This document shows positions 4,525 to 58,570 of a stretch of DNA of 64,000 nt, in pieces (the first letter of the stretch is position 1; every line of letters begins with the position of its first letter). Source of the DNA: Leuctra nigra (Eukaryota; Arthropoda; Insecta; Plecoptera; Leuctridae). The DNA is taken from assembly GCA_934045905.1 (NCBI GenBank), contig OW203769.1, positions 19,003,705 to 19,067,704 on the forward strand. The letters are read 5' to 3'. The notes beneath the pieces were generated by a model, which searched no databases, was not told where the DNA came from, and saw only the letters and a list, made by a program, of their open reading frames with translations. The translations under genes and the position numbers were made by a program.

Positions 4525-6687
4525 ATGAAGAATACACTGGTGAGTAGAAAATATCTCTCTTTTTAGAGTTAGACGGTAGGATGTTTTCGATCTAAAGAAC
4601 AGGTGAAACGAAATGCACGGACGCCACCAGGAATTTTTGCTTGGTGGATAATTATTTAGGGTGGGCATAACTTTTAAATTTTTCCTTTTAGAGTATACTT
4701 AAAAGAAAGACATACCCCGCAGTGCGTTTTTCGGATTTTTATATCAACATACTTTTTTGGGACGCTGAGAATATTAATTTTGGGGTAAAATATGATTGAA
4801 ATATCATATAAAATAGGGGTGGCTTGTAAAATTACCAAAATAGGGTTTGATCTATACATACAGCACAACTTAAATCGGTGTAATTTTAGAAAATTATTTC
4901 TATCTGAATTATTTTTATTGCTTATTTCATTAAATCATACCCAAAAATTAAAATTAAAATACAATACTAAAAGTTTCTTTCGATTATTTTAGGGTGGGCA
5001 GAGGGTGGGCAGTATACAATTTTGAGTGGGCGCGCTCCCACCCCTGGCGCCGTCCCTGACGAAATGAAACAACAACATGACTAAGTGGAAACAATGATAG
5101 GGATGCGTGTGTTGAAAATTATATTTCAGAATAACAACTATACTATTTGTTGGTAACACACTGTTTTCACACACAAAAGTGTATAGGTAGGTATTTTCAT
5201 TCATAAATATGAATTTTAAATTCAGTGGACATTTTGGCGTGAAACCGGTATTCTTGGCGAGTGATACATATCGTGAACCATCGTAACCTTATGATAAAAA
5301 ATAATCTCTCTATATGGAACACATTTTTCCCGCCAAAATGTTCGCTAAAATTAAATTTCATATTTATGAATGAAAAATTACAGTTTTGAGTGTGAAAATT
5401 GTGTTTTACTAACATAATATATTGTTATTTTGAATAATGCATTTTAATAACACTATAAAAAAGTATTCGTATTCAATAGTTATAAGTTACCTGCCAACGT
5501 CACTACCCCCATTTAAGATCCAGAAAAATTCTGGCTACCAGCGAGTGGTCAATATTATTTTATTTTATTTTTATTTATTCAAAACATCTTGCAATAAAAA
5601 TTGTACATTTTATGTGGCAAGGAAAACAATCACAAACCATAAACTTCAAATTCACAATAACGTTATAATAATACTAAGAGAACAAAATTACAAGGGAACA
5701 AAATTAAATACAAACTATAAAACATCAACATCCATCCCTTATCAATTCCTTAAACCTCTTCACAGTGCAATCTTCGCTTTATAAGGCATTGGTATAACCT
5801 ATAACCAAAACGTAACACTCCTGCGTGCCCCAAGGGCTGGAGTCACAAAAGGTATTATCTGCTAATACGTTCTGTATTTTGATTTAATACCGAAAATGCC
5901 ATGATAAATGAAAGATAATACAAAAGATAATACGTATTTGTTTGAATTGAAAATAATACTTTTCGCGAATCCAAGTCCTAAACCAGCTTGCTCCTTATAA
6001 ACACATAGCTTTTGTCGGCAGCCATTTGTGATCCTCGCCGTGCTGGTGACGAGCGTCGTCGGCGGCGTCCTGGTGACAGAGGGTGACTTCGACGGCGTCC
6101 TGGTGACAGAGGGTGACCTCGACACGGCTCCATATAAACACTTACCTTCTGTCGGCAGCCATTTGTGATCCTCGCCGTGCTGGTGACGTGTGTCGTCGGC
6201 GGCGTCCTGGTGACAGAGGGTGACTTCAACGGCGTCCTGGTGACAGAGGGTGACCTCGACACGGCTCCATATAAACACTTACCTTCTGTCGGCAGCCATT
6301 TGTGATCCTCGCCGTGCTGGTGACGAGTGTCGTCGGCGGCGTCCTGGTGACAGAGGGTGACTTCGACGGCGTCCTGGTGACAGAGGGTGACCTCGACACG
6401 GCTCCATATAAACACTTACCTTCTGTCGGCAGCCATTTGTGATCCTCGCCGTGCTGGTGACGAGTGTCGTCGGCGGCGTCCTGGTTACAGAGGGTGACCT
6501 CGACACGGCGGAGTCGGCGTTCCTCGGAGAGTACATCCTGGGGCTGGCGACGGCGGCGGGGGGCGGCTTCGGGGGCGGCGGGGGCGGATACAGGGGCTAT
6601 GACAGCTATGATAGCTACGGCGGAGGTTACGGCAGGAGCAGTTATGGACGATATTACGGAGGGCGGAGAGGGTATTCTTATTATTAG
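4525..6687 (+). CDS. Gly/Tyr-rich secreted peptide, 2 coding exons
   Basis: Proposed exons are 4525-4539 (MKNTL, then GTGAGT) and 6433-6687 (acceptor GTCGGCAG), joined in phase 0 to give 89 residues. The join creates a classic signal peptide (MKNTLPFVILAVLVTSVVGG); the hydrophobic core is in exon 2 and the lysine in exon 1, which supports the splice. The mature part has a short acidic stretch (TEGDLDTAES), then a run of about eight glycines and a GY/SY-rich tail (GYDSYDSYGGGYGRSSYGRY) ending in YSYY. Such low-complexity secreted peptides occur among insect cuticle, silk-like and antimicrobial Gly-rich peptides; which of these it is cannot be told. Intron 1 ends in three extra copies of the acceptor plus exon start (6022-6432). 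Using one of those acceptors instead would stop after about 47 codons of the copy. A possible poly(A) signal ATTAAA is at 6769. Confidence 0.65.
5120..5440. mobile_element. M1 MITE in intron 1 of the Gly/Tyr-rich peptide gene
   Basis: The two ends are inverted: ATTTTCATTCATAAATATGA near 5195 pairs with TCATATTTATGAATGAAAAA near 5357, and the internal GGACATTTTGGCG pairs with CCGCCAAAATG. The ends carry GTTATT/AATAAC. Related copies are at 3985-4240 and 53920-54175. Confidence 0.65.
6022..6432 (+). repeat. 3 x 137-bp tandem copies of acceptor plus exon 2 start
   Basis: Exon-like copies start at 6022, 6159 and 6296, with the true exon at 6433, so the spacing is exactly 137 bp. Each unit holds the intron end (TATAAACAC...TGTCGGCAG) and exon 2 from CCATTTGTGATCC through CTCGACACGG. 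The duplicated units also carry a nested 30-bp in-frame repeat (GGCGTCCTGGTGACAGAGGG...) that the real exon lacks. Because 137 is not a multiple of 3, reading through a unit hits TGA. No good GTRAGT donor lies inside a unit, so the copies act only as possible decoy acceptors. Confidence 0.85.
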
Positions 6688-14800: not shown

Positions 14801-16373
14801 CGATGCGCCAAGTATATTTTGGTTTTTAAAATCAAGTTTTGACTTGGCCCATTTTTGATATCACTACTTTTCAGTGCTGATTTTTTTGATTTCTTCTATT
14901 TTTTTTATAGTTGAAGAGACTTGGCTGGTATTTTTACACGGAGTGTTTTTTATGGGGATATCACACATTTGTTTAGTTTATTTAAACAACTTGTAACACA
15001 TATCGAAGCAACAATGACTAATTCCTTTAAAAAATAAGCCATTTCCAATTTGGTTACTAACAAAAGTTGCGTTTGGTACCAAAATATGCTTAAAGTGATA
15101 TTCCATGAAGAAAAGCGAAAGATTCGTTCCAATCGGTCCAGCCGTTTTCGAGATATGGCATCACTTCCGGTTAGCAAAATGGCGGCTGAAATCACTGCCA
15201 CCTAGAATTTATTTATATAAATGTTTTGTATCATTAAGCCTTCTGAATATGTAGTTATTGTAGTAAGAGGTTATTAAAGTCTGATTCTTTATTTTTATGA
15301 CGTCATTTCCGGTTTCGGTAACAGTAAATTTTTTAAGGCTTTTTAATTTTCATATATATGACTGTCCGAATCGTTTGACGCTAGTTTCGTTCCGATCGGT
15401 TTAGCTGGTTTCGAGATATAACGTCACTTCCGGTTTCAAAATGGCAGCTTCCGGTTGGTTTTATAAAAATTAACCTCAGACGCCAAAAGTGCACATGTGA
15501 TAAAAATTTCAGATCGATCGGCTGAGCCGTTTAGGCTGTGGCGGTGACAGCGACGTTTCCTGATAGAATCATCTGAAGAAGAAGAAGAAGAAGAAGAAGA
15601 AGAAGAAGAAGAAGAAGAAGAAGAAGAAGAAGAAGAAGAAGAAGAAGAAGAAGAAGAAGAAGAAGAAGAAGAAGAAGAAGAAGAAGAAGAAGAAGAAGAA
15701 GAAGAAGAAGAAGAAGAAGAAGAAGAAGAAGAAGAAGAAGAAGAAGAAGAAGAAGAAGAAGAAGAAGAAGAAGATGAAAGTGATGTAATTTCACGATTTT
15801 CACGGCCCTCTAGCTCGCAAATGGAATATCATATTGTTGGCTCACTTGGAATATTTGGTAGGGTGGGCCATAGCTCCAAATTAAAATATTTCGCAACAAT
15901 GTGATATTTCCCATTTTTGAGATCCAGTAGGCCGAAAATGCTATGTTGTTGCTTGTACAGTAAAAGTGTTTGGTCTGCTCCTCAGTTTATTAGGCATTTA
16001 CGGTATGTTGAGTGAGTGTGAGTGTACAGTACGACTTGGCTGGGTGGAGCGACCGCTCCACTAGATATTGATAAATGTGTCTGTGAAAATTTAAGTTTAT
16101 ACGAAATATATATAAATAGCACTAGATTAACAATTGATTTATTTTTTTTTTTAACACAAACAGGTGCATATTACTATGTATATATTCCTAAATATTTTTA
16201 CGGAATAGGCAATTAAAAAAGTAGAGGGACCTATAAAGTATCCTGCTGGGAGGGGGAGGGGGGGGGGACGAAGTTACGCCACTGTAATGAAACTGTCCAT
16301 TTACCTGTACCAAGTGCGCCAGAAGAGCACTTCCTAGGATGCAAAGCGCCAAAATGTTACAATGTTGTCCCAT
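11825..16373 (-). CDS. Odorant-binding protein OBP-C, 5 coding exons
   Basis: Coding exons in gene order are 16373-16305 (signal peptide MGQHCNILALCILGSALLAH...), 14232-14088, 13479-13394, 12655-12544 and 11898-11825 (stop TAG). All have GT-AG ends and compatible phases. The product is about 160 residues with the insect OBP cysteine skeleton: C1 in AEECNK, C2-x3-C3 as CFILC, C4 in MNECLKK, and C5-x8-C6 as CKKAYALAAC. OBPs are small secreted helical proteins that bind hydrophobic ligands such as odorants. An extra Cys precedes C1 (QSQCP). The exon 2 start is uncertain: an alternative phase-0 acceptor gives 14205. An in-frame ATG at 16406 exists, but 16373 gives the better signal peptide. Intron 1 carries the F2 element, and intron 4 carries an H1-derived fragment (about 11918-11970) close to the last exon. 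Confidence 0.8.
14562..16064 (+). mobile_element. F2 dispersed repeat, copy 1, in intron 1 of OBP-C
   Basis: The left 395 bp (14562-14957) is a near-perfect palindrome (CCCATAAAAAACACTCCGTG ... inverse). Next come repeated modules of the type CGATCGGTTTAGC...CGAGATATAACGTCACTTCC...AAAATGGC, then a (GAA)n tract, then unique sequence, and finally a terminal hairpin GTGGAGCG-AC-CGCTCCAC overlapping CTAG (16061-16064). The same order in inverse orientation forms 45607-49617. Half copies of the palindrome lie at about 14335-14420 and 52350-52433. No protein is encoded; the terminal hairpin plus CTAG recalls Helitron-type 3' ends. Confidence 0.7.
15571..15774. repeat. (GAA)n microsatellite
   Basis: About 204 bp of nearly pure GAA inside the F2 element. 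The homologous spot in the second F2 copy (45895-45916) has a short GTA tract, so the site is inherently prone to repeat growth. The resulting poly-Leu/poly-Lys frames are artefacts. Confidence 0.95.
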
Positions 16374-16754: not shown

Positions 16755-17175
<421 letters not shown>

Positions 17176-17882: not shown

Positions 17883-17964
17883 TGCCAGATGTGGGGTTCG
17901 AACCCACGCACTCTACGAGTATCAGAACTTAAATCTGACGCCCTAACCACTCGGCCAACCTGGC
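17883..17964 (-). tRNA. tRNA-Leu (anticodon UAA)
   Basis: The minus strand folds as a class II tRNA of 82 nt. The acceptor stem is GCCAGGT/ATCTGGC (one G-U) with discriminator A, the D arm contains GGCCGAGTGGTTA, and the anticodon stem TCAGA/TCTGA holds the loop TTTAAGT with UAA. There is a variable arm, and the T arm is GTGGG-TTCGAAC-CCCAC. No intron. Confidence 0.95.
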
Positions 17965-20280: not shown

Positions 20281-20360
20281 TGACCAATGAGAGAGCAGCA
20301 CATCATCTGGGAAGCTGTATGGAGCTCATCTCTCAGGCGCTCTGCTTCCTCTGCTGTGGG

Positions 20361-20396
20361 TATATAAACAGCCGCTGTTGAAGCAGAGGTATCAGT
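20361..20396 (+). promoter_or_regulatory. Core promoter of OBP-A
   Basis: TATATAAA at 20361-20368 and the arthropod initiator TCAGT at 20392-20396 (A+1 at 20394) are spaced 33 bp, as expected for a focused insect promoter. The 5' UTR is about 28 nt and contains a repeated AGCCAAC heptamer. The same arrangement is present in OBP-B. Confidence 0.8.
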
Positions 20397-20421
20397 CAAC
20401 AGCCAACAGCCAACAGCCAAC

Positions 20422-23400
20422 ATGAAGTTCCTGGCAGTCTTCGTTCTAGTAGCAGCCGTGGTCGGGGGAGCTCAAGTAAGTTTCACTTATCACTTATCAC
20501 TTATGCACTCGTATACTTGTGTTGAATCTGAAAAGTTTGAAGCATGACATAAGTTTTAGGATTTTATTATTCTTGTTTGATAATTTTACAGTGATGCTTT
20601 ATCTATTTCTCTTTGATTGACAAAATTATGCTGTGGAGTGGTTCTATTTTTCTTTTGTTATTCGTGTCTTTGGATTTTGTGACTATAAATATGAAAAAGT
20701 ATGAATATGAATATGATAATATTATATATATTATTCGTGATAATATTGTTAAGATTACATACCACCATGTCAAGTAAATACCAATTGACCATTTTAAATA
20801 TTATCTTAGTGGGTCTGCTTTCTAAGACAAATCATATGCAGTTTGATTTCCAAACAGCTTAGTCCCTTTTTCAACAATTGGTAAAACAGGGACTAAGGTG
20901 TATGGAAATAATACTGCATATGATTTTTCTTAGAAAGCAGAGCCACGGAGATAATATTTAAAATGGTCTATAAACAATATTTAGGAAATTTAGGAAAATG
21001 TATTATCTCTTAATGTAAATATAGTGCACTTTAACACCTTGGAAGAAAAAATAACACTATTTATTTAGGACTATTTACAAACTTTTAAAAAACTTTTGTT
21101 GTTGTTTAATAAATATTTGAAAATTTGAAAATGATCCTGAAAAATAGTTTTATTTTCTTAACATAACCCATAACATGATCGTGAAAGATATTACCTCTAC
21201 ACTGGAAGAATGTTGTAGAGAAGCAATGCTGCAAGTGTTATTGTTGCATATTGTTGCAGAGCGACGATCAGCAATACGAGCAGCGCGATCAGGACGATCA
21301 GTACGCCCAACCCGATGAGCAGGAGAGCGAGGAGGGCAATGTTGTAAGTGTTATTGATGCATATTGTTGCAGAGCGACGATCAGCAATACGAGCAGCGCG
21401 ATCAGGACGATCAGTACGCCCAACCCGATGAGCAGGAGAGCGAGGAGGGCAATGTTGTAAGTGTTATTGATGCATATTGTTGCAGAGCGACGATCAGCAA
21501 TACGAGCAGCGCGATCAGGACGATCAGTACGCCCAACCCGATGAGCAGGAGAGCGAGGAGGGCAATGTTGTAAGTGTTATTGATGCATATTGTTGCAGAG
21601 CGACGATCAACAATACGAGCAGCGCGATCAGGACGATCAGTACGCCCAACCCGATGAGCAGGAGAGCGAGGAGGGCAATGCTGTAAGTGTTATTGATGCA
21701 TATTGTTGCAGAGCGACGATCAGCAATACGAGCAGCGCGATCAGGACGATCAGTACGCCCAATCCGATGAGCAGGAGAGCGAGGAGGGCAATGTTGTAAG
21801 TGTTATTGATGCATATTGTTGCAGAGCGACGATCAACAATACGAGCAGCGCGATCAGGACGATCAGTACGCCCAACCCGATGAGCAGGAGAGCGAGGAGG
21901 GCAATGTTGCAAGTGTTATTGATGCGTATTGTTGCAGAGCGACGATCAACAATACGAGCAGCGCGATCAGGACGATCAGTACGCCCAACCCGACGAGCAG
22001 GAGAGCGAGGAGGGCAATGACCTCATCAGCGAGATGATGAGACACATGTACAAGTGCATGGAGGAAGAGAAGGACATCGACATCAGTGAGTCACAATTTA
22101 ACTGAATTCCAAGCATTTTGGTGCGTTTTGGATTTTGGGGGTATTCAAGTTTAAACTGTGAACCGAACATAAAGCCTGAAACAGGCGTTTTCTTCCTTTC
22201 AGCAATATTGTTCAACTTTTTAGAATTATCAACACACTATCAGTCAGAAATAACTAAAAAAAAAAATCAGATGGAGGCGATAACTCACTCGAATAGGGCA
22301 AACAAAACTAAGGCTTTTTGACGTAAATTTCCTTTTTTTAAAGATATTTTTGAATATCCAGGGGGCAAACGCTCCCTTTGTTTATTCTAAATTATAATTT
22401 CATTCAGATGCGTCAAGCAGTTATTGACGGAGGGTTACAGGGGGGGGGGGGGGGGAAGCTAGATCGAGTAGGTGGTGGATAGAACTCATGAATGGCAACA
22501 CTTCTGCTATTGCATGGGAATTATGTGTCCTTGTTTAGTATTGGCCAGTTAGAATGTAGTGTTGATGTGAAACAACATCGATGTTTGAGGGATCTGAGAC
22601 TGTTTGTGTATTTATTCCAGGTGTTTGTCTCACCATGTTCAAGAACACCAGCAATCTGGATGAGAACAAGTTTCATCCGTGCAAGGTGAGAATCTTCCAA
22701 GCTTTGTAAGCTCTCTGGTGCAAACAGTAATGAGTTCGATATTAGATGGAAGTAGGCCTCTCAGAAACCATATGTATTGGTTAAAAGTCTTATAATAGTA
22801 CATTCCTGTATCATTAAAAAAAATTAAAGAGACGTCCAGAAATGTACATTTTCAAATAATAATACCCTTGCGGTTACTCAAATGCGATCTGAAGTGGCTT
22901 CTGACATGCTCTTACATGCAGGACTTACATGTGTGATGTAGGCATCAACATGTCGCTCAGATTCAAATAGTACATTCCATTTCCAAGACAAGACCCACAC
23001 CTGCCACCAAGTAAAATCGGATTAATTTTGAATATTTTGTTGCATGTCGGACTGACTTCAACAAAATACTGCCTACAAAATAGTGATTCTTGTGTCTTAA
23101 CGATATGAATACTGAATGTTTTATATTAATCACAACTGAATTTCTTGCTTGTTTCAGTGCATGATTGCGTGCGTCCAAAGAAAGTTCGAAGTGGTAAGTC
23201 AAACATATTCTATTTCATAAAACACACAAAATACGTTGATAACATATTTTTTGTATGACAGTCAGATCAATGTATAAATTGATCATTTTCTTCACAATTA
23301 TTTTATTAGTTCAGCCAATTTCAATTCAATTTTTATTCTTGAAAAATTTAATTAGTAATTTTCATAAAACTATGACTCTTAATAATACGTCCTAGTTATA

Positions 23401-24648
23401 TTGCCATTCATTCGAATTCTTAAAACCTAGTTGAGATACTTACGATGTTGATAGAAAAATATCTAGTTTTAGTTGACAAAAGTACTAAAGTAAGGTTTGG
23501 ATTTTGTCACTCAAATTTGAATTGTTGTATCGAATTTGTTTATGTCAAAGCCGATAGAATAGGCGAGTCTTAGCATAAAACAAAGTCTTGCAGTGTGATT
23601 GAGTTTGATGATGTGAGGTTATGTATGTCATGAAAGTCTGGATCCGTCCTCAATATTCCTGCTGTATTGGAGGAACCTTAACACGTGTTCCTGATTCTTC
23701 CAGCTCAAGCCCGAGGGAACCTTCGACTGGAACAAGTTCACGGAGCACAAGAAGCGCATAGAAGAGCAGAAGTATCTGGATGAGGCCGACAAAGTCGAGA
23801 ACAATTGCAAGGGCCAGAGTAAGTAGCCAATCACAGTTTGGAGATTCGGCCATCAAGTTGATCTTGTGCATTTCTCTTGATATTGATGCTTTATGGGAAG
23901 ATGTTTTCGATTTCAATTTTTAAACTATTTAGAAGATTTTGAACATTTCGATATTTGACTGCCATTATTTACCATTGTAATACACGTTTTAAAGGATTAA
24001 AAGGGAGGGATTTTTTTTTTGGAAATAAAATATTAGCTTGAGTCGAATCATGTCACAAATTCAGTAAATTTTTAAACTCTAAAATATTGATAAAAACACA
24101 ATAAGTCATAAGACATCTCCGCAATAATACCCTTGTTATTTTCTCACCAGCTACAGCTAGTCCTGACATCTGTGAAACTGGTTTCAACATGTTCAAATGC
24201 TCCATGATTGCGTCAAAAGTTGTAAGTAAAACCAAGCAAGTCAGAAAGAAGTTGTAATTCTACACCAATTACAAGTCTGTGTACCAAAGAACAGTATCAG
24301 AGAGATTCTCTGGTATCAGAGAATTGCCATTCACTACAAGGAAAATATATTAAAATTTGAGATGTACACATACATCTTTCAATATCCAGCCAATATCGAA
24401 ACGGTATTGCCTTTCTGCTATTGTCTGGAATTGAAAGATATACATCTAAATCTCTTGGTGACTCAATCGCGCTGACTGTGCCTAAAATATGAATAAATGA
24501 AAACTTCATCTGTGATTCGTTCACATGCTTTGATCTGAATCTACTCTCTTACAAGTGAAATTATTTCCAGCTTCTAATCCTGTTGTTTTGTTTCTTCCAG
24601 GGGAGGGACTACGTCGAGAACTTGTTGAAGTCTTTCTCCGGTGAATAA
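20422..24648 (+). CDS. Odorant-binding protein OBP-A, 7 coding exons, with tandem exon 2 cassettes
   Basis: Exons: 20422-20475, 21938-22085, 22621-22685, 23158-23193, 23704-23818, 24151-24221 and 24601-24648 (TAA). All have GT-AG ends and phases that agree. The basic product is 178 residues: signal peptide MKFLAVFVLVAAVVGGAQ, then a Gln/Asp/Glu-rich segment (SDDQQYEQRDQDDQYAQ...), then the OBP domain. The cysteines are C1 in YKCME, C2-x3-C3 as CMIAC, C4 in ENNCKG and C5-x8-C6 as CETGFNMFKC. Two extra cysteines (ISVCLT and HPCK) are shared with OBP-B and would allow a fourth disulphide. Upstream of exon 2, six in-phase copies of its first 84 nt (from 21260) could be added as alternative exons. 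The role is binding of small hydrophobic ligands outside the cell, inferred from the family. Confidence 0.85.
20789..20966. mobile_element. MITE in intron 1 of OBP-A
   Basis: ACCATTTTAAATATTATCTT at the left pairs with the inverse at the right. The inner CTGCTTTCTAAG...ATCATATGCAG pairs with CTGCATATGAT...CTTAGAAAGCAG, and AGTCCCTTTTT...AACAGGGACT forms the core. Its inner motif resembles the 34509-34698 MITE. Confidence 0.8.
21223..21937 (+). repeat. 6 x 113-bp tandem copies of acceptor plus exon 2 start in OBP-A
   Basis: Exon-like blocks of 84 nt start at 21260, 21373, 21486, 21599, 21712 and 21825; the true exon starts at 21938. Each is preceded by a TATTGTTGCAG acceptor. Each copy is followed by 29 bases running from a donor-like site to the next acceptor. 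Copies 1-5 have GTAAGT (after GTT or GCT), while copy 6 has GCAAGT, as does the ancestral intron sequence upstream of copy 1 (GCTGCAAGTG). The 84-nt blocks are in phase 0, so any number of them can be included. Reading through without splicing gives a stop within the next unit. Confidence 0.9.
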
Positions 24649-26172: not shown

Positions 26173-26254
26173 GCCAGGTTGGCCGAGTGGTTAAGGCGTC
26201 AGACTTAAGTTCTGATACTCTCTGAGTGCGTGGGTTCGAACCCCACACCTGGCA
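26173..26254 (+). tRNA. tRNA-Leu (anticodon UAA)
   Basis: 82 nt, class II. The acceptor stem GCCAGGT/ACCTGGC is perfect with discriminator A. The anticodon stem TCAGA/TCTGA holds the loop CTTAAGT (UAA), and the T arm is GTGGG-TTCGAAC-CCCAC. T-rich sequence (CTTTTTTG) follows within 10 bp and can serve as a Pol III stop. Confidence 0.96.
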
Positions 26255-27580: not shown

Positions 27581-30500
27581 TTCCGCTCGATTGGAGTGCC
27601 GAAATTGATTTTTTCATAATTATCGATTGTTTACATCATTCTTAATATTACCTGACGTGCCTTCAATTTTTTGGTGGCCATCTTGGAAAATATGGCGGAA
27701 AACGTAAATTTTACAAATTATTTAATTGTTGGTTGAGGAAAGGTTGAAAAATTATGAAATAATTCACTAAATCTAAATCAAATGTGGAGACTTGAAAAAA
27801 AAAATACGCCGTGAACGACATTTTATTTTTTCATTGTTGGAATTGACCAATCACGTTTCTGTGTTTTTTTGCTCTCAATTTATTACGAAACGCGTGGACT
27901 TACACTAAAATATGTGGAATTAAAAATTGTAGGCAATTTCATTGTGAACAATATGCATTTTACAAAATTTTACTGCGACCAACAGTTTTCAGTTTAGAGC
28001 AATTATTGTGCGACCTTCCGAGTTAAGTCATCACCTCAGTAGATGCCATGGCCCCATACACGGTCAATAGTCCAGAGTCTAAGCTGCAAAAAGGGGCCTA
28101 ACCCGCACCTCTGTAACGTATGAAAAGTTCTCCGAAATTAGATTAGGGTGGGTGGGCCAAAATGCCAAATTTGTCAAAAAGTCATTGTTGTCATTATCAA
28201 ATAATCAAATCATATCAACCTAGTCGAGTAGCATATCAAATGAAAGCTTATCTTTAGAACAATTATAAATAATATATATCACCATTGTAAAATTGGTACA
28301 TAGGTCAAAAGGGGTCAAAAAGTAGTCAAAATCACATTTTTTAAGTATTCCAGGAAAATGCGGTACCTTCGTCCCTAATAAAGATCATAACAAATTTTTT
28401 TATATTAATCGATCCGATATGAATCTGATTATAACATATTAAAAGTTATCCAAAATTTTTCTTTGAACATGAATGGGCTAATGAATCTGTCATATAGTTT
28501 ATAAGGGCAATTTTTATTTTGAGTGCAAAATCTAAGATTATACCAATTTCCTAGCCACTTATAACTAAAGGTTTTTTGGTGTAAAACGATACAGAACAAT
28601 GCTGTCTAAAACATATCAAAAGTTCTCCAAATTTTGATTAGGGTGGTTGGGCCAAATTTCAAAATTTTGATTAAACTCATTGTTGTCATTTTCAAATTAT
28701 CAAATTATATCAACCTAGTCGAGTAGCATATCAAATGAGAGCTTATGATTAGTACAACAAATTAAAATAAATATGACCATTTAAAAGGTCATACAAAGGT
28801 CATGAGAGGCCAAAACATGGTAAAATTTCCCATTTTTAAGCGTCCAAGAACAAGTGACATTAGGTCATCGTTAATAAAAGCAATATTTTTTATGTTTTAC
28901 ATTGATTTCTTATTATGATAATGATGTCCTTTGATTTGTGTTTTATATTACCAATTTTTGTAACTTTATTGTAATTGTAATAAACCATACGAAATAATAA
29001 TAATAATAAAAGTAAATAATATACTATTTGACACCAATTAACCCAAAATTAAATAGTTTATAACATATAATTAATTCGCCAAAATTCTAAATCCGTCGAT
29101 TAGCCAATTTTTTTTTATTCAATTTCAAAATTGTGACATTTGTAGTGAAGAAAAATCTAGCGAATAGTATAAAATGACGGATAATCGTCATTTTATGTAT
29201 CAACTTGACAATGGGGTCGTTCCACCGGAATTAGACCAGTGGTCGTTGCGGCACTATTTAATACAATTTTCTAACTTTGCTCACAGAAACATATATTTTT
29301 ATGAATGTAAAAACGATTTTTTGCATATTTTTTACTTTTGTCGTTTAGAAGATACGGGCCTTAGAGGTTTGGAGAACAAGCAAAATAAGGGTATACGGCA
29401 AGTCTTACATTTGTACCAAAAACAAAGATAATTGTGTTCCACCAGCGTTGTTAGATTCAGAAAATGTTCATCTTTCAATAAAAAAATTCAACATTTGATT
29501 TGGGAAACTCTAACTGTGCAAATTTGGGGTGCACATTTTCGGCGGGAAATCGTGTTTTTTTGAATTTTTGAGCCAATGTTTTTCGTTCAATGTTAGTTAT
29601 TTCAAAACAAATATTTTTGTGTATGAACTACATACCAAGTGGTATAATAATTAGCTGATAAACATTTCAAATTATTCCATTAACCTAGCTAAAAAAATAT
29701 CAAAATATTTGGGAATTCAATTTTTTCCCATTTTCAAGGTCATCGTACGGAAAAGGGGGACCTCGTATAATCTGGTGGAACATACACTAAGATTGGCGAA
29801 TATAAGGTTGATAATTACTGAAAGTTTTGTTTTGTATATTGGCTTGGTATAGAAGTTACGATACTGTCCTTGGGGTCAAAATTGAAAATAAATTAATTTT
29901 TGACATTTTTGAGGTCATAGTACGGAAAAGGGGGACCACATATATTCTGGAAAGAGATGCGTTGACATTCACGTATATAAGGTTAGTAATTACCGAAAGT
30001 TTTGTTTTGTATATTAGTTTGGTATAGAAGTTAGGTATCATTGATGAGGTATTCACGGCTCAAATTTACTTCTGATTCAGATTTTATAAAAAAAACATTA
30101 ATGATGCACATTTATGATATACGCATGATTATTATTTTAATTTTTACTATATAAATATCAACGATAAAGATTTCATCGCTTTAGATGATTTAAAATATTA
30201 GCCCTAGGTGTAGTACAACCCGAAGATAAATAAATATGATAATTTTGAATCTATTGTCAGTTTTAAGTTAACATGATATACAAAACCAAACATTGAGAAA
30301 TTAAGAACATTAACATCACCAATTCAATCGTAATTTTTTACAGAATTAATGAGGTCACCCTTTTCCGTACTATGACCTACAAAATGCCAAAAATTAACTT
30401 ATTTTCCATATGCAGTACCTCATCAACGTTACTGTAACTTCTATACCAAACTAATATACAAAACAAAACTTTCGGTAATTACTAACCTTATATACGTGAA

Positions 30501-32830
30501 TGTAAGCGCATCACTCTCCAGAATATACGTGGTCCCCCTTTCCGTACTATGACCTCGAAAATGTCAAAAATTTTTTTTTTTCAATTTTGACCCTAAGGAC
30601 AGTATCGTAACTTCTATACCAAGTCAATATACAAAACAAAACTTTCAGTAATTATCAAACTTATATTCGCCAATCTTAGTGTATGTTTCACCAGATTATA
30701 CGAGGTCCCCCTTTTCCGTACGATGACCTTGAAAATGGGAAAAAATTAAATTCCCAAATATTTGGATATTTTTTTAGCTAGGTTAATAAAATAATTTTAA
30801 ATGTTTATCAGCTATTTATTATACCACTTGGTATGTAGTTCATACACAAAAATAATTGTTTTGAAATAACTAACATTGAACGAATATCTTTGGCTCAAAA
30901 ATTCAAAAAAACACGATTTCCCGCCGAAAATGTGCACCCCAAATTTGCACAGTTAGAGTTTCCCAAATCAAATGTTGAATTTTTTTATTGAAAGATGAAA
31001 ATTTTCTGAATCTAACAACGCTGGTGGAACACAATTATCTTTGTTTTTGGTACAAATGTAAGACGTGCCGTATACCCTTATTTTACTTGTTCTCCAAACC
31101 TCTAAGGCCCGTATCTTCTAAACGACAAAAGTAAAAAATATGCAAAAAATCGTTTTTACATTCATAAGTATATTTGTTTCTGTGAGCAAAGTTAGAAAAT
31201 CGTATTAAATAGTGCCGCAACCATTTTTCTTAAAATTGGTCTATTACTGGTGGAATAAGCCAATGGTGATATATATTTTTAATAATTGTTCTAAAGATAA
31301 GCTTCATTTGATATGCTACTCGACTAGGTTGATATGATTTGATTATTAGATAATGACCACAATAAATGACTATAAATGTCTATTAAACACTGTATATGTC
31401 ACAATTTTGAAATTGAATAAAAATTTAATTGGCACATCCACGGATATAGAATTGTGGCGAATTTTTTATAAGTTATAAACTATTTAATTTTGGGTTAATT
31501 GGTGTCAAATAGTATATTATTTACTTTTATTAACGATGACATAATGTCAATTGTCCTTGGACGCTTAAAAATGGGAAATTTTACCATGTTTTGGCCTCTC
31601 ATGACCTTTGTACGACCTTTTTAATGTTCACATTTATTTAAATTTGTTGTACTAATCATAAGCTTTCATTTGATATGCTACTCGACTAGGTTGATATAAT
31701 TTGATAATTTGAAAATGACAACAATGAGTTTTATCAAAATTTTGAAATTTGGCCCAACCACCCTAATCAAAATTTGGAGAACTTTTGATATGTTTTAGAC
31801 AGCATTGTTCTGTATCGTTTTACACCAAAAAACCTTTAGTTATAAGTACCTAGTGGCTAGGAAATTGGTATAATCTTAGATTTTGCACTCAAAATAAAAA
31901 TTGCCATTATAAACTATATGACAGATTCATTAGCCCATTCATGTTCAAAGAAAAATTTTGGATAACTTTTAATATGTTATAATCAGATTCATATCGGATC
32001 GATTAATATAAAAAAATTTGTTATGATCTTTATTAGGGACGAAGATACCGCATTTTCCTGGAATACTTAAAAAATGTGATTTTGACTACTTTTTGACCCC
32101 TTTTGACCTCTGTATCAACTATACAATGGTTATATATATATTTAATAATTGTTCTAAAGATAAGCTTTCATTTGATATGCTACTCGACTAGGTTGATATG
32201 ATTTGATTATTTGATAATGACAACAATGACTTTTTGACAAATTTGGCATTTTGGCCCACCCACCCTAATCTAATTTTGGAGAACTTTTCATACGTTACAG
32301 AGGTGCGGGTTAGGCCCCTTTTTGCAGCTTAGACTCTGGACTATTGACCGTGTATGGGGCCATGGCATCTACTGAGGTGATGACTTAACTCGGAAGGTCG
32401 CACAATAATTGCTCTAAACTGAAAACTGTTGGTCGCAGTAAAATTTTGTAAAATGCATATTGTTCACAATGAAATTGCCTACAATTTTTAATTCCACATA
32501 TTTTAGTGTAAGTCCACGCGTTTCGTAATAAATTGAGAGCAAAAAAACACAGAAACGTGATTGGTCAATTCCAACAATGAAAAAATAAAATGTCGTTCAC
32601 GGCGTATTTTTTTTTCAAGTCTCCACATTTGATTTAGATTTAGTGAATTATTTCATAATTTTTCAACCTTTCCTCTACCAACAATTAAATAATTTGTAAA
32701 ATTTACGTTTTCCGCCATATTTTCCAAGATGGCCACCAAAAAAATTGAAGGCACGTCAGGTAATATTAAGAATGATGTAAACAATCGATAATTATGAAAA
32801 AATCAATTTCGGCACTCCAATCGAGCGGAA
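27581..32830. mobile_element. 5.25-kb palindromic (foldback) element
   Basis: The left end TTCCGCTCGATTGGAGTGCC is the exact inverse of the right end. The arms, about 2.45 kb each (27581 to about 30050 and about 30415 to 32830), are inverse complements with few changes. A spacer of about 360 bp lies between. Within each arm a module with ATCAACCTAGTCGAGTAGCA recurs (28215 and 28712 on the left, inverse near 31312, 31672 and 32177 on the right), as does GTACGGAAAAGGGGGACC (29751 and 29921 on the left). No transposase frame is present. It splits the LINE RT gene. A clean target duplication was not found; only AGCA is shared near the borders. Confidence 0.9.
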
Positions 32831-34430
32831 AGCATTTTTTCTACACTTGAACCTGCACTAGTACCATAATTTTTATTTACAATTTTTATTTTTTCCAATG
32901 TATTATTCAAATCATTTTTCATTTTAAAATGTATGAAGTTAGTTTTGTTAGAGTTTAAATGTAAGCAATTATCATTGAACCAATTTGTTGTATTGACTAT
33001 AGTGTTTTCTGCGTTTTGCTTGAGAATATCATTTGTTTTTCCTATTATGGTTATATTTGTGTCATCTGCAAATAGTTCTGATAGTTTAATAGTTTCTGGC
33101 AAGTCGTTAATATATATAATGAATAGTAGGGGCCCAAGTATCGATCCTTGTGGTACTCCCCATGTGACGGGCTCAGGATCAGATAAAAATTTTGATTCTT
33201 TGTTGTTTATTATTGATGTTATCTCTACATGCTGTATTCTATTTTGCATGTACGACTCTAAGAGTTGAAGTGCTACTCCCCTCACACCATAGTGTTCCAA
33301 TTTAGCTATAAGTATAGAGTGCTTTATGCTATCAAAAGCTTTTGATAAGTCGCAGAATAGTCCTATAGTTTGTTCTCGATCTTCTAGTCCAACTATAGTG
33401 TTATTTATGAAATTTTGAATAGTATTCGATGTTGATTTGTTCCTTCGGAACCCACTTTGTTTATTAGTTAATAGATTTTCTAGTTCTAGGAATGAAGTTA
33501 ATCTTACGTGAATTATTTTTTCAAAAATTTTCGAAACAGTTGGAAGCAGTGATATTGGCCTATAATTTTCTGAAACTTTCTTATCTCCTTTCTTAAAGAT
33601 GGGAATGATGGCTATTTTCAGTTTCTCTGGGAATATTCCTTTATCAATACAAATGTTGAATATGTGTGATAGAGGTGTTGCTAATGGTTTGATAGATTTC
33701 TTTAGAATGTTAGTGGGTATTTTGTCTATTCCGCAAGATTTCTTGTTTTTCAACCTCGATACTATTTTTATTATTTCTGTCTCTGACGTGTTTTGTACAA
33801 AAAAGGAGTTGATTGGTGTTTTTGTTTTATTTAAATGCTTGTGGAAATTATTGTCAGATGTGTTGATTGATTTCTGTAGTGTTTGTGCTATATTAGCAAA
33901 ATCTTTGTTGAATTTGTTTGCAATCTTGTTAGGATCTGTAATCAATTCATTATTTTCTTTCAATATTACGTTATTTTTATCTCTAGTTTTCATTCTTTCA
34001 TTCTTAAACAACTTCCCAGATTTTTTTGGTCCTAGTACATCCTGTTTCCTCTAATATCTTTTTGGTAATGGTATGTCTTTTTGCTGCTGCGATAGTTTTT
34101 TTGTAAATTTTTTTAGTGTTTTTATACAATTGTCTAAGGAAGTCTGTTTTGTAGTGAGAAAAGAGATCATAAATGCATTTTAGATTTTTGGCTGACGTTT
34201 TAATTCCAAGTGTTACCCATTTTGGCTTCTTATAATTATTGTTGATCTTTATATTTTTTACTGGGAAGCACTCCTCAAACGTTTCATTTAAGATTTCTGA
34301 GAATTTATCATACTTATCGTTTGGATAAGTTATGTTGTACATTTCATTCCAAGATACTCTTTCCAACTCCTCAATAAATATCTCTAAAGTTTCCTTATTA
34401 ATAATTCTAACTTGAATTGTTTTGGTTGGG
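32831..34430 (-). pseudogene. LINE reverse transcriptase (ORF2 middle part)
   Basis: Two overlapping minus frames (about 34430-34004 and 34011-32803) are joined by a frameshift at a 7-A run near 34020. The first carries the linker after the endonuclease. The second has RT blocks in order: SCGIDKIPTNILK, IIPIFKKGD, NYRPISLLP, KQSGFRRNKST, LFCDLSKAFDSI, WGVPQGSILGPLLFIIYIND, ELFADDTN (catalytic FADD) and NCLHLNSNKTNFIHF. These are the canonical blocks of jockey/CR1 non-LTR polymerases. The last residues of the frame come from the palindrome inserted at 32830. Confidence 0.9.
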
Positions 34431-35611: not shown

Positions 35612-38600
35612 CTTCTCTTTTTGACTGTTTGAGTTAATTGAACATTTCCGATTTTAGATTTAGATTTAGACATTCTAGCAGGTTGCGATCTTGATCCATT
35701 CTTGACTGATGTAGTATGCACTGCTGGGCTCGACGACTTATTCACCTCTGCTTGCCTCGTAGTTCTTCCATCTGTAGTATGCACTGCTGGGCTCGACGAC
35801 TTATTCACCTCTGCTTGCCTCGTAGTTCTTCCATCTGTAGTATGCACTGCTGGGCTCGACGACTTATTCACCTCTGCTTGCCTCGTAGTTCTTCCATCTG
35901 TAGTATGAACTGCTGGGCTCGACGACTTATTCACCTCTGCTTGCCTCGTAGTTCTTCCATCTGTAGTATGCACTGCTGGGCTCGACGACTTATTCACCTC
36001 TGCTTGCCTCGTAGTTCTTCCATCTGTAGTATGCACTGCTGGGCTCGACGACTTATTCACCTCTGCTTGCCTCGTAGTTCTTCCATCTGTAGTATGCACT
36101 GCTGGGCTCGACGACTTATTCACCTCTGCTTGCCTCGTAGTTCTTCCATCTGTAGTATGCACTGCTGGGCTCGACGACTTATTCACCTCTGCTTGCCTCG
36201 TAGTTCTTTCATCTGTAGTATGCACTGCTGGGCTCGAAGACTTATTCACCTCTGCTTGCCTCGTAGTTCTTCCATCTGTAGTATGCACTGCTGGGCTCGA
36301 CGACTTATTCACCTTTGCTTGCCTCTTAGTTCTTCCATCTGTAGTATGCACTGCTGGGCTCGACGACTTATTCACCTCTGCTTGCCTCGTAGTTCTTCCA
36401 TCTGTAGTATGCACTGCGGGGCTCGACGACTTATTCACCTCTGCTTGCCTCGTAGTTCTTCCATCTGTAGAATGCACTGCTGGGCTCGACGACTTATTCA
36501 CCTCTGCTTGCCTCGTAGTTCTTCCATCTGTAGTATGCACTGCTGGGCTCGACGACTTATTCACCTCTGCTTGCCTCGTAGTTCTTCCATCTGTAGTATG
36601 CACTGCTGGGCTCGACGACTTATTCACCTCTGCTTGCCTCTTAGTTCTTCCATCTGTAGTATGCACTGCTGGGCTCGACGACTTATTCACCTCTGCTTGC
36701 CTCTTAGTTCTTCCATCTGTAGTATGCACTGCTGGGCTCGACGACTTATTCACCTCTGCTTGCCTCGTAGTTCTTCCATCTGTAGTATGCACTGCTGGGC
36801 TCGACGACTTATTCACCTCTGCTTGCCTCGTAGTTCTTCCATCTGTAGTATGCACTGCTGGGCTCGACGACTTATTCACCTCTGCTTGCCTCGTAGTTCT
36901 TCCATCTGTAGTATGCACTGCTGGGCTCGACGACTTATTCACCTCTGCTTGCCTCGTAGTTCTTCCATCTGTAGTATGCACTGCGGGGCTCGACGACTTA
37001 TTCACCTCTGCTTGCCTCGTAGTTCTTCCATCTGTAGTATGCACTGCTGGGCTCGACGACTTATTCACCTCTGCTTGCCTCGTAGTTCTTCCATCTGTAG
37101 TATGCACTGCTGGGCTCGACGACTTATTCACCTCTGCTTGCCTCGTAGTTCTTCCATCTGTAGTATGCACTGCTGGGCTCGACGACTTATTCACCTCTGC
37201 TTGCCTCTTAGTTCTTCCATCTGTAGTATGCACTGCGGGGCTCGACGACTTATTCACCTCTGCTTGCCTCGTAGTTCTTCCATCTGTAGTATGCACTGCT
37301 GGGCTCGACGACTTATTCACCTCTGCTTGCCTCGTAGTTCTTCCATCTGTAGTATGCACTGCTGGGCTCGACGACTTATTCACCTCTGCTTGCCTCGTAG
37401 TTCTTCCATCTGTAGTATGCACTGCTGGGCTCGACGACTTATTCACCTCTGCTTGCCTCGTAGTTCTTCCATCTGTAGTATGCACTGCTGGGCTCGACGA
37501 CTTATTCACCTCTGCTTGCCTCGTAGTTCTTCCATCTGTAGTATGCACTGCTGGGCTCGACGACTTATTCACCTCTGCTTGCCTCGTAGTTCTTCCATCT
37601 GTAGTATGCACTGCGGGGCTCGACGACTTATTCACCTCTGCTTGCCTCGTAGTTCTTCCATCTGTAGTATGCACTGCGGGGCTCGACGACTTATTCACCT
37701 CTGCTTGCCTCGTAGTTCTTCCATCTGTAGTATGCACTGCTGGGCTCGACGACTTATTCACCTCTGCTTGCCTCGTAGTTCTTCCATCTGTAGTATGCAC
37801 TGCTGGGCTCGACGACTTATTCACCTCTGCTTGCCTCGTAGTTCTTCCATCTGTAGTATGCACTGCGGGGCTCGACGACTTATTCACCTCTGCTTGCCTC
37901 GTAGTTCTTCCATCTGTAGTATGCACTGCGGGGCTCGACGACTTATTCACCTCTGCTTGCCTCGTAGTTCTTCCATCTGTAGTATGCACTGCTGGGGTCG
38001 ACGACTTATTCACCTCTGCTTGTTTCGTAGTTCTTCCATCTGTAGTATGCACTGCTGGGCTCGACGACTTATTCACCTCTGCTTGCCTCGTAGTTCTTCC
38101 ATCTGTAGTATGCACTGCTGGGCTCGACGACTTATTCACCTCTGCTTGCCTCGTAGTTCATCCATCTGTAGTATGCACTGCGGGGCTCGACGACTTATTC
38201 ACCTCTGCTTGCCTCGTAGTTCTTCCATCTGTAGTATGCACTGCTGGGCTCGACGACATATTCACCTCTGCTTGCCTCGTAGTTCTTCCATCTGTAGTAT
38301 GCACTGCGGGGCTCGACGACTTATTCACCTCTGCTTGCCTCGTAGTTCTTCCATCTGTAGTATGCACTGCTGGGCTCGACGACTTATTCACCTCTGCTTG
38401 CCTCGTAGTTCTTCCATCTAAAGTATGCACTGCTGGGCTCGATGACTTATTCACCTCTGCTTGCCTCTTAGTTCTTCCATCTGTAGTATGCACTGCTGGG
38501 CTCGACGACTTATTCACCTCTGCTTGCCTCGTAGTTCTTCCATCTGTAGTATGCACTGCTGGGCTCGACGACTTATTCACCTCTGCTAGCCTCTTAGTTC

Positions 38601-55700: not shown

Positions 55701-58427
55701 CAAATAATAAGTCACTTTTATCAAGACATTTAGCAAAATTCAGTTAACGTTCTAACATGTTACCTTATTATTGTTGCTAATTTGCTGGTTTGGAAATGGG
55801 ATGAATGAAATCATGATGGCTATTCTCTAAATTACCAATGACAATTTCTCACTAAAAATTTTAGTATCAATAAACATTGATCAGAGAAGATGTTGAGATG
55901 TAGACAGAAGAAATTTTTATGGAATTTGATGAAAAACGAGCAGAAGAAGAAGAAGAAGAAGAAGAAGAAGAAATTGAATAAATTAGATCAGAGTATGTAT
56001 TTGATGGTAAAAAGTGTGACAGGCTTGGCCATCCGGCATTATAATGTACTATGTTTTGTGGCCTAAATTTTTGTGAGCGTTTTCCCACTCCAATTTAGTT
56101 TGGAAGGGTGCATTTATTTATGCTCTGTGAGAAAAAAATAATATATAATATATAGTTAATTTTAAAAATTATTAATGTATTATAAGTCATAAAAATATTT
56201 GTTTTCGTAAGGAATGACATGCCGGTGAGCCAGGGCTGTGTGTGGAACAATTAGGACTCTTACCTTGCACGGGTCGAACTTGCTGTCGCTAAGGACGCTG
56301 TCATTCTTGAACATCGTGAAACAGACGCCTGGAATAAGTTCAAGATGATATAATTATGACTCACATCATGTTATTGGACGTTCACATTTATAGTGTCCCC
56401 ACATTACTGCGATGACAGTTTACACTTGTGAAACTGAAGATATTAAAGGGATCCTGAAGGTATTTAAGTGTGGACCAGGATGTATAGGTGTGGACCATGG
56501 GATGTGTGGACGTACCGAAGTTGACATCCTTGACGACGCCCATACATCCCTGGATGTGCTGCATCAGCTCAGCAATCAGTCCCTGCTGGCCCTTATCATC
56601 GTCGTCTTCACCCTGCACAATACACAATACCGTCACAATACCGTCACACAATACCATCATACAATACCGTCACACTCAGCAATCAGTCCCTGCTGGCCCT
56701 TATCATCGTCGTCTTCACACTGCACAATACACAATACAGTCACAATACCGTCACACAATACCGTCACACGATACCGTCACACAATATAGGTACCAACATG
56801 GCACTGCAACAATATCGTACACAATACCGCACAATACACCAGCGCTCTTAAATGTAAGTCTACACCTACGTAATTATCTGCACAATATCTTTGCATAGGT
56901 TTCTCTCAATTGTTTAGTTATTACACAAAGAATGAAATACGAAAGGGTCCTAAACGTTTTATTTATTTTTTTACTAATATCCTGGATTTGAATATTTAGT
57001 TGATATTTTTGTCAATTAGGTACGTTTTAGTTACTCAGGAAAGCCAAGTTATACATCGACTAAAGTACCTAAACTCCATCTATGAACTTATTTAAAATCT
57101 TAAAATTGTACAAGTCAATAAGTCAAAAATTATTCTGAGGGATTTCACAAAAATGCATTAAAAATGTTTACAATCAGATATTTAAAAAAAGGATACCCAG
57201 ATCAATCAACAATGAAAATCCTGTTATTATTTTATTTTCAATACATTTTCAATTTATTTTCTGTTATTTTTATTTCCAAGTCGCATATTTTTCCTCCTGG
57301 AATGACTAGTGCTGGATGTTTCAGTTGATAGAGTCGACATTGGAATTCACTCTGATTACGTCACGTAGCTCTGATTGTATTGGCTGTTGATGATGCAATG
57401 ATGCATGGAGATAGCACAACATTGGTCCAGGCACATCCTCACAGATTGTACACACAGCTTCACGACTCAATGACTTTATGATGTCGACGAGGACATTATC
57501 GATATAAAACTCAGCCATAGTAGAAAAGTAAAAAAATGATTATTTCCACGGACCGAGAATGCTCCATATATAGATTATTTTTTAACTAATTAATAACTTT
57601 GCATATGAATTTGAAATTATAGTCTCAACAAGCGAGTAGTTTTAGAATACTTATCTGTGTCTTTTCGGTATTTTGTGCGATTTGGATGCATTTAAATCAA
57701 ATGTCAAATGTCAAGCGTTATAAATTACACATCTCCCAATTTAAGATGTTTTTATTATCAGCTGTTCCTACATCATTTAGGTAAGTCATATAGGTAATTT
57801 ACAATACCAATATCATTTTCTAGCTAGGATGGGAAACATTTTTAATATATTGTAAATTTTCATTTAATGCTGAGGAAATTTGGCTAGTGGAGGGGGGGGG
57901 GGATGGATCACTTAACACCCTCCCCCCCCCCCCCATCATAGGTATGCCTGAAGAATACACTTAAGAATATATCTATTGATTTCAATTACATAAAAATAAA
58001 CAGCGTATAATATGAACTTATTAAACTTAGTTCTTGAAGAACATTTGATGAGGTTAGGTCTGTCAGAAGCCAATTAAGCCGTAACTTGAATAATCAAGGA
58101 ATTTGTTAAAACAGACATGGTTAATTCCTCGATTAATCTTCAGGGTTAATTTTCTTGTTGTCTTATTGTTGTAAATTTAAAAACAAAACAACGAATTTAC
58201 CATTCCAAATCTGCAAAAACCCTTGATGGAAGTTCAAAAGTGTTCATTGATGCAAGACACGAGTAAAATAATTTAATAACATGCATTGAAGAATATTTAG
58301 CAGACTAGAGATTTACAAATGTTAATTAAATGTGATATATTGTGTAAAAGTGTAAAAAGTCTTCAAGTCTTACTTGAGCTCCCCCGAGCACGGCTGCTAC
58401 TAGAACGAAGACTGCCAGGAACTTCAT
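52036..58427 (-). CDS. Odorant-binding protein OBP-B, 7 coding exons
   Basis: Exons in gene order: 58427-58374, 56612-56516, 56328-56264, 55656-55621, 54409-54295, 53741-53671 and 52089-52036 (TAA). All have GT-AG ends. Lengths 54, 65, 36, 115 and 71 equal those of OBP-A exons 1, 3, 4, 5 and 6. The product has 163 residues: signal peptide MKFLAVFVLVAAVLGGAQ, a short acidic start (GEDDDDKGQQ), C1 in IQGCMG, extra Cys in GVCF and DPCK, C2-x3-C3 as CMIGC, C4 in DQCKGK and C5-x8-C6 as CGTGYNMFVC. It is the inverted paralogue of OBP-A and lacks that gene's long Gln-rich stretch. Introns hold several transposon pieces. Confidence 0.87.
52434..53492. mobile_element. TIR element with an inserted RTE fragment
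   Basis: GGGGCTGTTCATAAATTATG at 52434 is inverted at 53470-53492 (CATACTTTATGAACAGCCCC), and long C tracts follow each end. The interior contains (TA)n at 52699-52725 and the RTE ORF fragment. It sits inside intron 6 of OBP-B and splits a half copy of the F2 palindrome (52350-52433). Confidence 0.65.
52739..53164 (-). pseudogene. RTE/I-type LINE, C-terminal fragment
   Basis: It contains CITYGSEVWTINRRLQHRVN, MAFWRRSCGVTLFDHIRNEE, LLWYGHMRRMPEKRLPAKIW and KRGRPRRMWLDGIGEAL. This is the typical C-terminal end of RTE-like polymerases and is a 5'-truncated insertion. It is the source of many craniofacial-development-protein-like mis-annotations in insects. It lies in an OBP-B intron and is not part of that gene. 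Confidence 0.85.
53920..54175. mobile_element. M1 MITE in intron 5 of OBP-B
   Basis: CATTTTCATTCATAAATAG at the left pairs with TTTATGAATGAGAATTT at the right, and ACATTTTGACGTG pairs with CACCAAAATGTC. Same family as 5120-5440. Confidence 0.65.
54547..55206. mobile_element. Compound inverted-repeat element with G tracts
   Basis: CATGGGCATCCGCC at 54547 is inverted at about 54910-54921 and again at 55192-55206 (TGCGGACGCCCATG). G18-like tracts follow the left ends. AAAATCAATTTTGAGATGTT at about 54649 pairs with the inverse near 55090. It appears to be two copies of one MITE sharing an end, in intron 4 of OBP-B. Confidence 0.6.
55208..55285 (+). mobile_element. SINE fragment
   Basis: GGGTTCAATTCCCGATGCC, CTTGACTGATGCC and CCTCAGTCGAGAGGTAAA match the middle of the SINE. 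Both ends are missing. Confidence 0.55.
56613..56840 (-). repeat. One extra copy of acceptor plus exon 2 start in OBP-B, and (ACAATACCGTCAC)n
   Basis: A 107-bp offset copy of exon 2's first 45 bases (56675-56719 on plus, TCAGCAATCAGTCCCTGCTG ... CGTCTTCAC) with its TGTGCAG acceptor lies in intron 1, just upstream of the real exon. The copy replaces GGT with TGT and has no donor; splicing to it gives a stop after about 20 codons. The spacer around both is a CAATAC/CGTCACA minisatellite. Confidence 0.8.
56841..58373. other. Intron 1 of OBP-B, remainder
   Basis: AT-rich intron with a poly-G/poly-C pair near 57890-57935. A minus 65-codon frame at 57321-57518 (MAEFYIDNVLVDIIKSL...) has a TATATATGG about 40 bp upstream, but no family is recognised. 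It may be a transposon remnant or a nested small gene (low confidence). Confidence 0.4.
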
Positions 58428-58452
58428 GTTGGCTGTTGGCTGTTGGCTGTTG

Positions 58453-58488
58453 ACTGATGCCTCTGCTTCAACAGCGGCTGTTTATATA
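58453..58488 (-). promoter_or_regulatory. Core promoter of OBP-B
   Basis: TATATAAA (58488-58481 on minus) and TCAGT (58457-58453) have the same 33-bp spacing as in OBP-A, and the AGCCAAC-repeat leader is the same. Identity with OBP-A extends about 100 bp further upstream (CCAATGAGAGAGCAGCACAT). Confidence 0.8.
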
Positions 58489-58570
58489 CCCACAGCAGAG
58501 GAAGCAGAGCGCTGAGAGATGAGCTCCATACAGCTTCCCAGGTGATGTGCTGCTCTCTCATTGGTCATCA

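Follow-up and report, generated by a model that had tools for sequence, protein, structure and literature searches.

In the window, i.e., the whole stretch of 64,000 nucleotides that was analysed, an insect odorant-binding protein gene (OBP-A) carries, ahead of its exon 2, a 113-bp tandem array in which the end of intron 1 and the start of exon 2 recur together, and the best explanation that we can offer, at about even odds (a probability of roughly 0.5), is that candidate units of this array are spliced in under a rule that excludes neighbours. The anatomy of the array, its phase, the pairing strength of its donors and the frame outcome of 64 splice paths were established, and on paper the array appears splice-competent. 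The fuller form of this reading combines nearest-neighbour exclusion over any non-adjacent set of five units, 13 mRNAs with four tail lengths, a policing of the rule by frame and stop codons, and a range of tail lengths that unequal exchange would render heritable and variable among individuals, in a genome with repeated amplification of exon 2 acceptors among OBP paralogues; in this complete form we find it doubtful.

OBP-A is a PBP/GOBP-family insect gene of seven exons (54, 148, 65, 36, 115, 71 and 48 nt for exons 1 to 7), which occupies positions 20422-24648 of the + strand and encodes 178 residues. The original prediction had read it as an OBP gene, and this assignment was borne out by a Pfam PF01395 match with an E-value of 9.7e-10 and 39 bits, above the curated cut-off of 22 bits. 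By eye, the protein displays a hydrophobic N terminus and eight cysteines with C-x3-C and C-x8-C spacings, which would fit the classic insect OBP pattern. When the spliced protein was compared with a large protein collection, none of the 25 candidates reached an E-value of 0.01, and the comparison with PDB sequences gave no match. The exons are the following (in donor motifs, the slash marks the exon-intron border):

20422..20475, + strand: OBP-A exon 1, 18 codons for a putative signal peptide, donor CAA/GTAAGT, exon length same in OBP-B
21938..22085, + strand: OBP-A exon 2 proper, 148 nt, one block copy and the start of the OBP domain
22621..22685, + strand: OBP-A exon 3, length conserved in OBP-B
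23158..23193, + strand: OBP-A exon 4, length conserved in OBP-B
23704..23818, + strand: OBP-A exon 5, length conserved in OBP-B
24151..24221, + strand: OBP-A exon 6, donor GTT/GTAAGT, length conserved in OBP-B
24601..24648, + strand: OBP-A exon 7, includes the stop

The exon structure shared with a paralogue, OBP-B, supports this gene model, including its exon 6 donor. OBP-B lies on the - strand (58427-53671, six exons modelled, with the last exon left out of the model) and also matches PF01395 (E-value of 1.8e-7, 31.7 bits for the cut-off of 22). Five of the six modelled exons have the same length in both genes, while exon 2 measures 97 nt in OBP-B versus 148 nt in OBP-A, a difference of 17 codons located in the tail before the domain and followed by an ungapped stretch with 67 of 117 residues identical. 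The promoter and exon 1 are 98% identical over 200 bp (20281-20480 in OBP-A, 58369-58567 in OBP-B), and exon 5 gives a 116-bp match that is 84% alike. Since the 5′ identity stands well apart from that of the domain residues and of exon 5, gene conversion or recent copying of the OBP 5′ end is likely. Note that intron 1 of OBP-A also holds, at 20784-20971, two 94-nt arms that are 87% complementary and have no loop between them.

Ahead of exon 2, Tandem Repeats Finder reports the array at 21223-22019 (period 113, 98% matches, score 1517), which is composed of six extra unit copies placed head to tail and then of exon 2 itself. Each 113-bp unit combines about 38 nt of intron end with 75 nt of exon start, and the copies share their source sequence with the neighbouring intron 1 and exon 2:

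21223..22019, + strand: 113-bp tandem array of intron 1 end and exon 2 start, 7.1 copies
21260..21343, + strand: unit 1, 84-nt in-phase candidate exon, GTT/GTAAGT
21344..21372, + strand: 29-nt spacer between units 1 and 2, recurring after each unit, retained intron 1 end
21373..21456, + strand: unit 2, 84-nt candidate exon, GTT/GTAAGT
21486..21569, + strand: unit 3, 84-nt candidate exon, GTT/GTAAGT
21599..21682, + strand: unit 4, 84-nt candidate exon, GCT/GTAAGT
21712..21795, + strand: unit 5, 84-nt candidate exon, GTT/GTAAGT, Pro to Ser
21825..21908, + strand: unit 6, 84 nt, GCAAGT replaces GTAAGT, 29 nt from exon 2

The acceptor-exon starts (21260, 21373, 21486, 21599, 21712, 21825 and 21938) follow each other at a step of exactly 113 nt. 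Read as exons, units 1-6 each offer an acceptor and then a phase 0 stretch of 84 nt that stays open over its 28 codons, and the final few nucleotides of this stretch derive from the repeat junction. The GTAAGT donors of units 1-5 lie at 21344, 21457, 21570, 21683 and 21796 and the GCAAGT of unit 6 at 21909, and GCAAGT is also found at 21231, in the intron that flanks the array upstream of unit 1. The repeat search and the coordinates thus agree with what had been described beforehand, namely six near-identical units with an acceptor and an in-phase 84 nt, GTAAGT in five of the six, GCAAGT in unit 6 and in the upstream intron, 29-nt gaps and, for next-but-one joins, introns of 142 and 255 nt. 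The claim of six cassettes stood only in part: six in-phase 84-nt units do exist, but six usable cassettes were rejected, as only units 1-5 occur in in-frame splice paths (see below). Indeed, unit 6 is probably never an exon, because the sole exon 2 acceptor downstream of it is only 29 nt away. Units 1-3 do not differ at all in their 84-nt exon parts, as would be expected if the assembler had created copies or altered their number; however, the copies differ at several sites (CAG or CAA, C or T, GT or GC, A or G) and their spacing is exactly the same each time, and we judge such an artefact very improbable.

The splice paths that start at exon 1 and run through exon 2 were enumerated with a minimum intron length of 60 nt, and both retention and use of the GC donor were permitted. 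Out of 64 paths, 13 stay in frame to the natural stop, while 51 meet a stop before exon 3, inside the array or exon 2. The 13 in-frame paths are exactly all the non-adjacent choices from units 1-5 (the choice of none included, and unit 6 in none of them), and their products measure 178 residues (1 path), 206 (5 paths), 234 (6 paths) and 262 (1 path). When the exon 2 copy is counted, these products hold one to four blocks, the maximum being units 1, 3 and 5 plus exon 2. The logic of alternate units, which the original prediction had coupled with 1 to about 4 blocks, therefore holds across the 64 paths, with the units limited to five and the blocks to exactly one to four. Each block is acidic, Gln-rich and N-terminal to the OBP domain, and adds 28 residues (~3.3 kDa) with a net charge near -10, the pI moving from 4.66 to 4.09. 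Skipping of exon 2 is out of frame from all six units.

Two neighbouring units should not both be used, since their 29-nt spacing lies below the published donor-to-branch-point limit. PMC7969005 gives a steric threshold of ~50 nt for this distance, and in PMC5740500 a criterion of <50 bp flagged 57 of 629 human clusters. A putative branch site, TTGAT, lies 16 nt before the acceptor in the spacer between units 1 and 2, which puts the donor 13 nt from the predicted branch point between neighbours and 126 nt from it for next-but-one units; the branch point itself is only predicted, and the whole spacer of 29 nt is already under the limit. Splicing of the 29-nt spacers, which had been thought too short from the start, was rejected on this threshold of PMC7969005 and on the introns of the two OBP models, the shortest of which measures 187 nt among 11 (with one first-acceptor choice in each model). 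Next-but-one introns of 142 nt would be short for these OBP genes, yet plausible in the species.

As had also been anticipated, an unspliced unit leads to a premature stop, and this is the case for read-through from each of units 1-6: for units 1-4 the stop coincides with the donor of the unit that follows, for unit 5 the reading continues through unit 6 (where CAA is kept) to a stop in exon 2, and for unit 6 the stop is likewise in exon 2. The C-to-T change that makes the donor also turns CAA into TAA in the frame that results when one spacer is read through, and it is on this basis that frame and stop codons would police the exclusion rule. The same stops would serve an expression damper, in which the upstream acceptors are used, the units are often read through and the early-stop transcripts are destroyed, with array length tuning the functional OBP output. 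Read-through from the upstream acceptor of OBP-B (56719) also ends in a stop, after 38 residues, and new Drosophila introns more often encode premature stops, according to PMC2809761. However, a damper does not need the frame-rescuing donor present in five of the six units, and we consider it distinctly unlikely. Under neighbour exclusion, each unit would be recognised by exon definition, and a donor located 29 nt from the next acceptor would render neighbours mutually exclusive through crowding of the splicing machinery. Exon 1 would then join exon 2 directly or via any non-adjacent choice of units 1-5, so that mature OBPs might carry one to four copies of the acidic, Gln-rich tail block, while spacer read-through would lead to a stop and presumably to nonsense-mediated decay.

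Donor strength was expressed as the pairing energy with the 5′ end of U1. The unit donor pairs at -7.3 kcal/mol (-3.3 for the GCAAGT of unit 6), compared to -5.6, -5.7, -9.6, -9.1, -8.0 and -7.0 kcal/mol for the constitutive donors of OBP-A exons 1-6; it beats the donors of exons 1 and 2, approximately equals that of exon 6 and is weaker than those of exons 3, 4 and 5, so that by this measure it is no worse than three of the six. Only 1.77% of the 6855 GT sites in the window (both strands) are as strong. The sequence GTTGTAAGT occurs 5 times in the window versus 0.52 expected, its sites being four unit donors (copies of each other and hence not independent) and the exon 6 donor, whose 9-mer GTT/GTAAGT is identical to the donors of units 1, 2, 3 and 5. 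The acceptors are the weak point of the units, with 9-10 pyrimidines out of 17 versus 12-14 out of 17 for exons 3-7. At -16, a YTNAY motif is found before copies 2-7 and is missing before copy 1, where one base is different, and no YTNAY branch motif was found in the last 50 nt before unit 1; the presence of this motif is weak evidence, as five bases are frequently matched by chance.

Weak unit acceptors are in line with a passive minisatellite lying across the acceptor, where the mRNA would join exon 1 to 21938, or the array would almost always be skipped, with unit inclusion at noise level. Against this, the six upstream acceptors hardly differ from that at 21938 and precede it in transcription, and the latter therefore has no evident advantage; moreover, GTAAGT is present in five of the six units with a U1 pairing that matches half of the constitutive donors. 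We retain the passive array as a tentative possibility of some weight, on which the origin of the donor and the other arrays of the window also bear.

Concerning this origin, GCAATG is common to both duplication breakpoints, as expected for a small microhomology duplication. An error joining the GCAATG of exon 2 to the GCAATG located 37 nt upstream of the acceptor would have produced the duplication, which comprises ~38 nt from the end of the intron and 75 nt from the start of the exon, and unequal exchange may then have raised the number of extra copies to six. In the part of the intron that was retained, a C-to-T change (GCAAGT to GTAAGT) would have made each donor-bearing unit a complete 84-nt phase 0 exon. 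GC at the donor position is probably ancestral, since it is present both in the intron upstream of unit 1 and in unit 6, and the C-to-T origin put forward in the original prediction is supported by this retention of GC at either end. For two C/T sites close to the donor, all four combinations are seen among seven contexts, which implies recombination within the array or recurrent change; judged from these copies, a simple history along one lineage fails to account for every unit.

To place the donor against chance, 600 random-breakpoint duplications were made over 10 OBP acceptors, i.e., five from OBP-A, without that of exon 7, and five from OBP-B. The present locus is among the ten, and its inclusion raises the counts, if anything. 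A strong in-phase donor arose at once in 7 of the 600 and was one base change away in 77 of them. A strong donor is thus more than duplication alone usually yields, and a donor one mutation away is not rare; the latter count also favours the passive array, in that chance is not far-fetched. The donor in all five usable units fits selection for the rescue of a harmful extra acceptor, and it also fits amplification of one lucky copy. The five units able to use a donor have GTAAGT, and unit 6, which is unable to, does not; that the last unit has no donor may simply reflect its history, with 1 in 6 by chance. At ~98% likeness, the copies hold too few changes to demonstrate selection for frame.

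Two further duplications in the window, which the original prediction leaves unmentioned, also span an acceptor:

56613..56719, - strand: OBP-B extra 107-bp copy, exon 2 start and the following intron-end copy (repeat search, read-through check)
5990..6504, + strand: third acceptor-spanning array, 137 bp x 3.8, in a gene resembling those of Gly-rich secreted proteins

In OBP-B, the exon 2 acceptor is doubled (107 bp x2, 56568-56782, acceptors 56719 and 56612), probably through an event separate from that of the OBP-A array, since the breakpoints differ. A strong in-phase donor in the extra unit was rejected, as its four in-phase GT sites pair at -1.9, -1.9, -2.5 and -4.9 kcal/mol, and the -4.9 kcal/mol site leaves only 29 nt. 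In the third gene (5990-6690), an acceptor is spanned by four copies of 137 bp (acceptors 6022, 6159, 6296 and 6433), and read-through from the first three stops early. In the two of its four units that were scored, in-phase GT sites of the exon part pair at -5.1 to -6.2 kcal/mol with introns of 56-113 nt; these sites are of moderate strength, comparable to the donors of OBP-A exons 1 and 2, and cassette use would be conceivable here. A Pfam search of the protein of this gene matched no family. By eye, copies 2-4 of the third array also show AAG/GTAAGTG on the - strand of their intron-end piece, which is absent from the flanking copy.

Altogether, the OBP-B duplication and the third array point to a mutational process that has acted repeatedly, whether or not function is involved. 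Amplification alone would need no function, because OBP-B has no good in-phase donor and the third array only moderate ones, and this speaks for the passive array in OBP-A. In a placement test, arrays with a period of at least 60 were set against 11 OBP acceptors, the acceptor of the third gene being left out as it is known only from its array. At least two of the four arrays (<2 kb) hit an OBP acceptor in 1.8% of random placements, and in 10.3% when the 9.5-kb array was added, the observed hits being the two OBP arrays. This enrichment of acceptor-spanning arrays at OBP acceptors is suggestive at most, as it was tested after the pattern was noticed.

The OBP-A array can be read as a case of exon/intron gain by tandem duplication, with candidate exons. 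The nearest precedent, as described in PMC4974935, is the potato RdRp gene, in which an intron-exon structure underwent a single duplication and activation of a cryptic GTAAG donor led to a new intron. In both cases, the upstream intron end (with branch site and 3′ splice site) and the exon were duplicated head to tail and an exon was added. In contrast, one copy is found in potato versus six in OBP-A, 10 nt of exon began the new intron in potato whereas the OBP-A donor sits in the retained intron piece after the GC-to-GT change, and the OBP-A spacer is only 29 nt, with neighbours that would not both be spliceable. PMC4974935 also mentions fission yeast genes in which an exonic AGGT segment of 24 bp is present several times, and the tandem-duplication intron gains of Drosophila are exonic in PMC2891723. 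As in this Rogers model of exonic AGGT duplication, where the yeast cases are also multi-copy, duplication supplies the splice sites; however, the Rogers-model segment is exonic and becomes an intron, whereas the OBP-A unit spans the acceptor and adds possible coding blocks. For premature stops in new Drosophila introns, PMC2809761 suggests that decay may hide them from selection.

Mutually exclusive exons that rely on a short donor-to-branch-point distance are reported for OGDH and tropomyosin (PMC7969005 and PMC5740500), and they resemble the OBP-A units in that neighbouring exons are too close for joint splicing; one exon per cluster is chosen there, whereas the near-identical row of OBP-A would allow any non-adjacent set or none. 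OBP-A and OBP-B share the PF01395 domain with other insect OBPs, from which OBP-A differs by a possibly repeated acidic, Gln-rich N-terminal block before the domain. A literature search, with most subscription papers outside it, turned up no OBP in which units of exon 2 are directly comparable in being repeated. Should the cell make use of the units, the array would be a natural experiment on exon birth, with near-identical exons at fixed 113-nt steps, in which acceptor order and donor-to-branch-point distance are tested with the sequence held almost constant, and in which a single base change turns a harmful duplicated acceptor into an in-frame cassette; it would also provide an insect odorant-binding protein with a variable acidic tail. 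OBP-B, with the same kind of duplication and no good donor, serves as a built-in control. If the units are unused, acceptor-spanning repeats would be shown to be tolerated in OBP genes.

Other features of the window were noted along the way. A 63-bp unit is repeated ~151 times at 35710-45233, with long open stretches on the - strand that read as a 21-residue repeat. A large inverted repeat at 27581-32830, whose main arm matches are 95.7-97.6% identical, adjoins a reverse-transcriptase-like ORF (by eye) at 32803-34050 on the - strand. A GAA run (15575-15778, 68 copies) and a GAT run (16809-17014, 68.7 copies), both 98-99% perfect, lie ~1 kb apart, and two tRNA-Leu(TAA) genes (17883-17964 and 26173-26254) occupy opposite strands and are ~91% alike.
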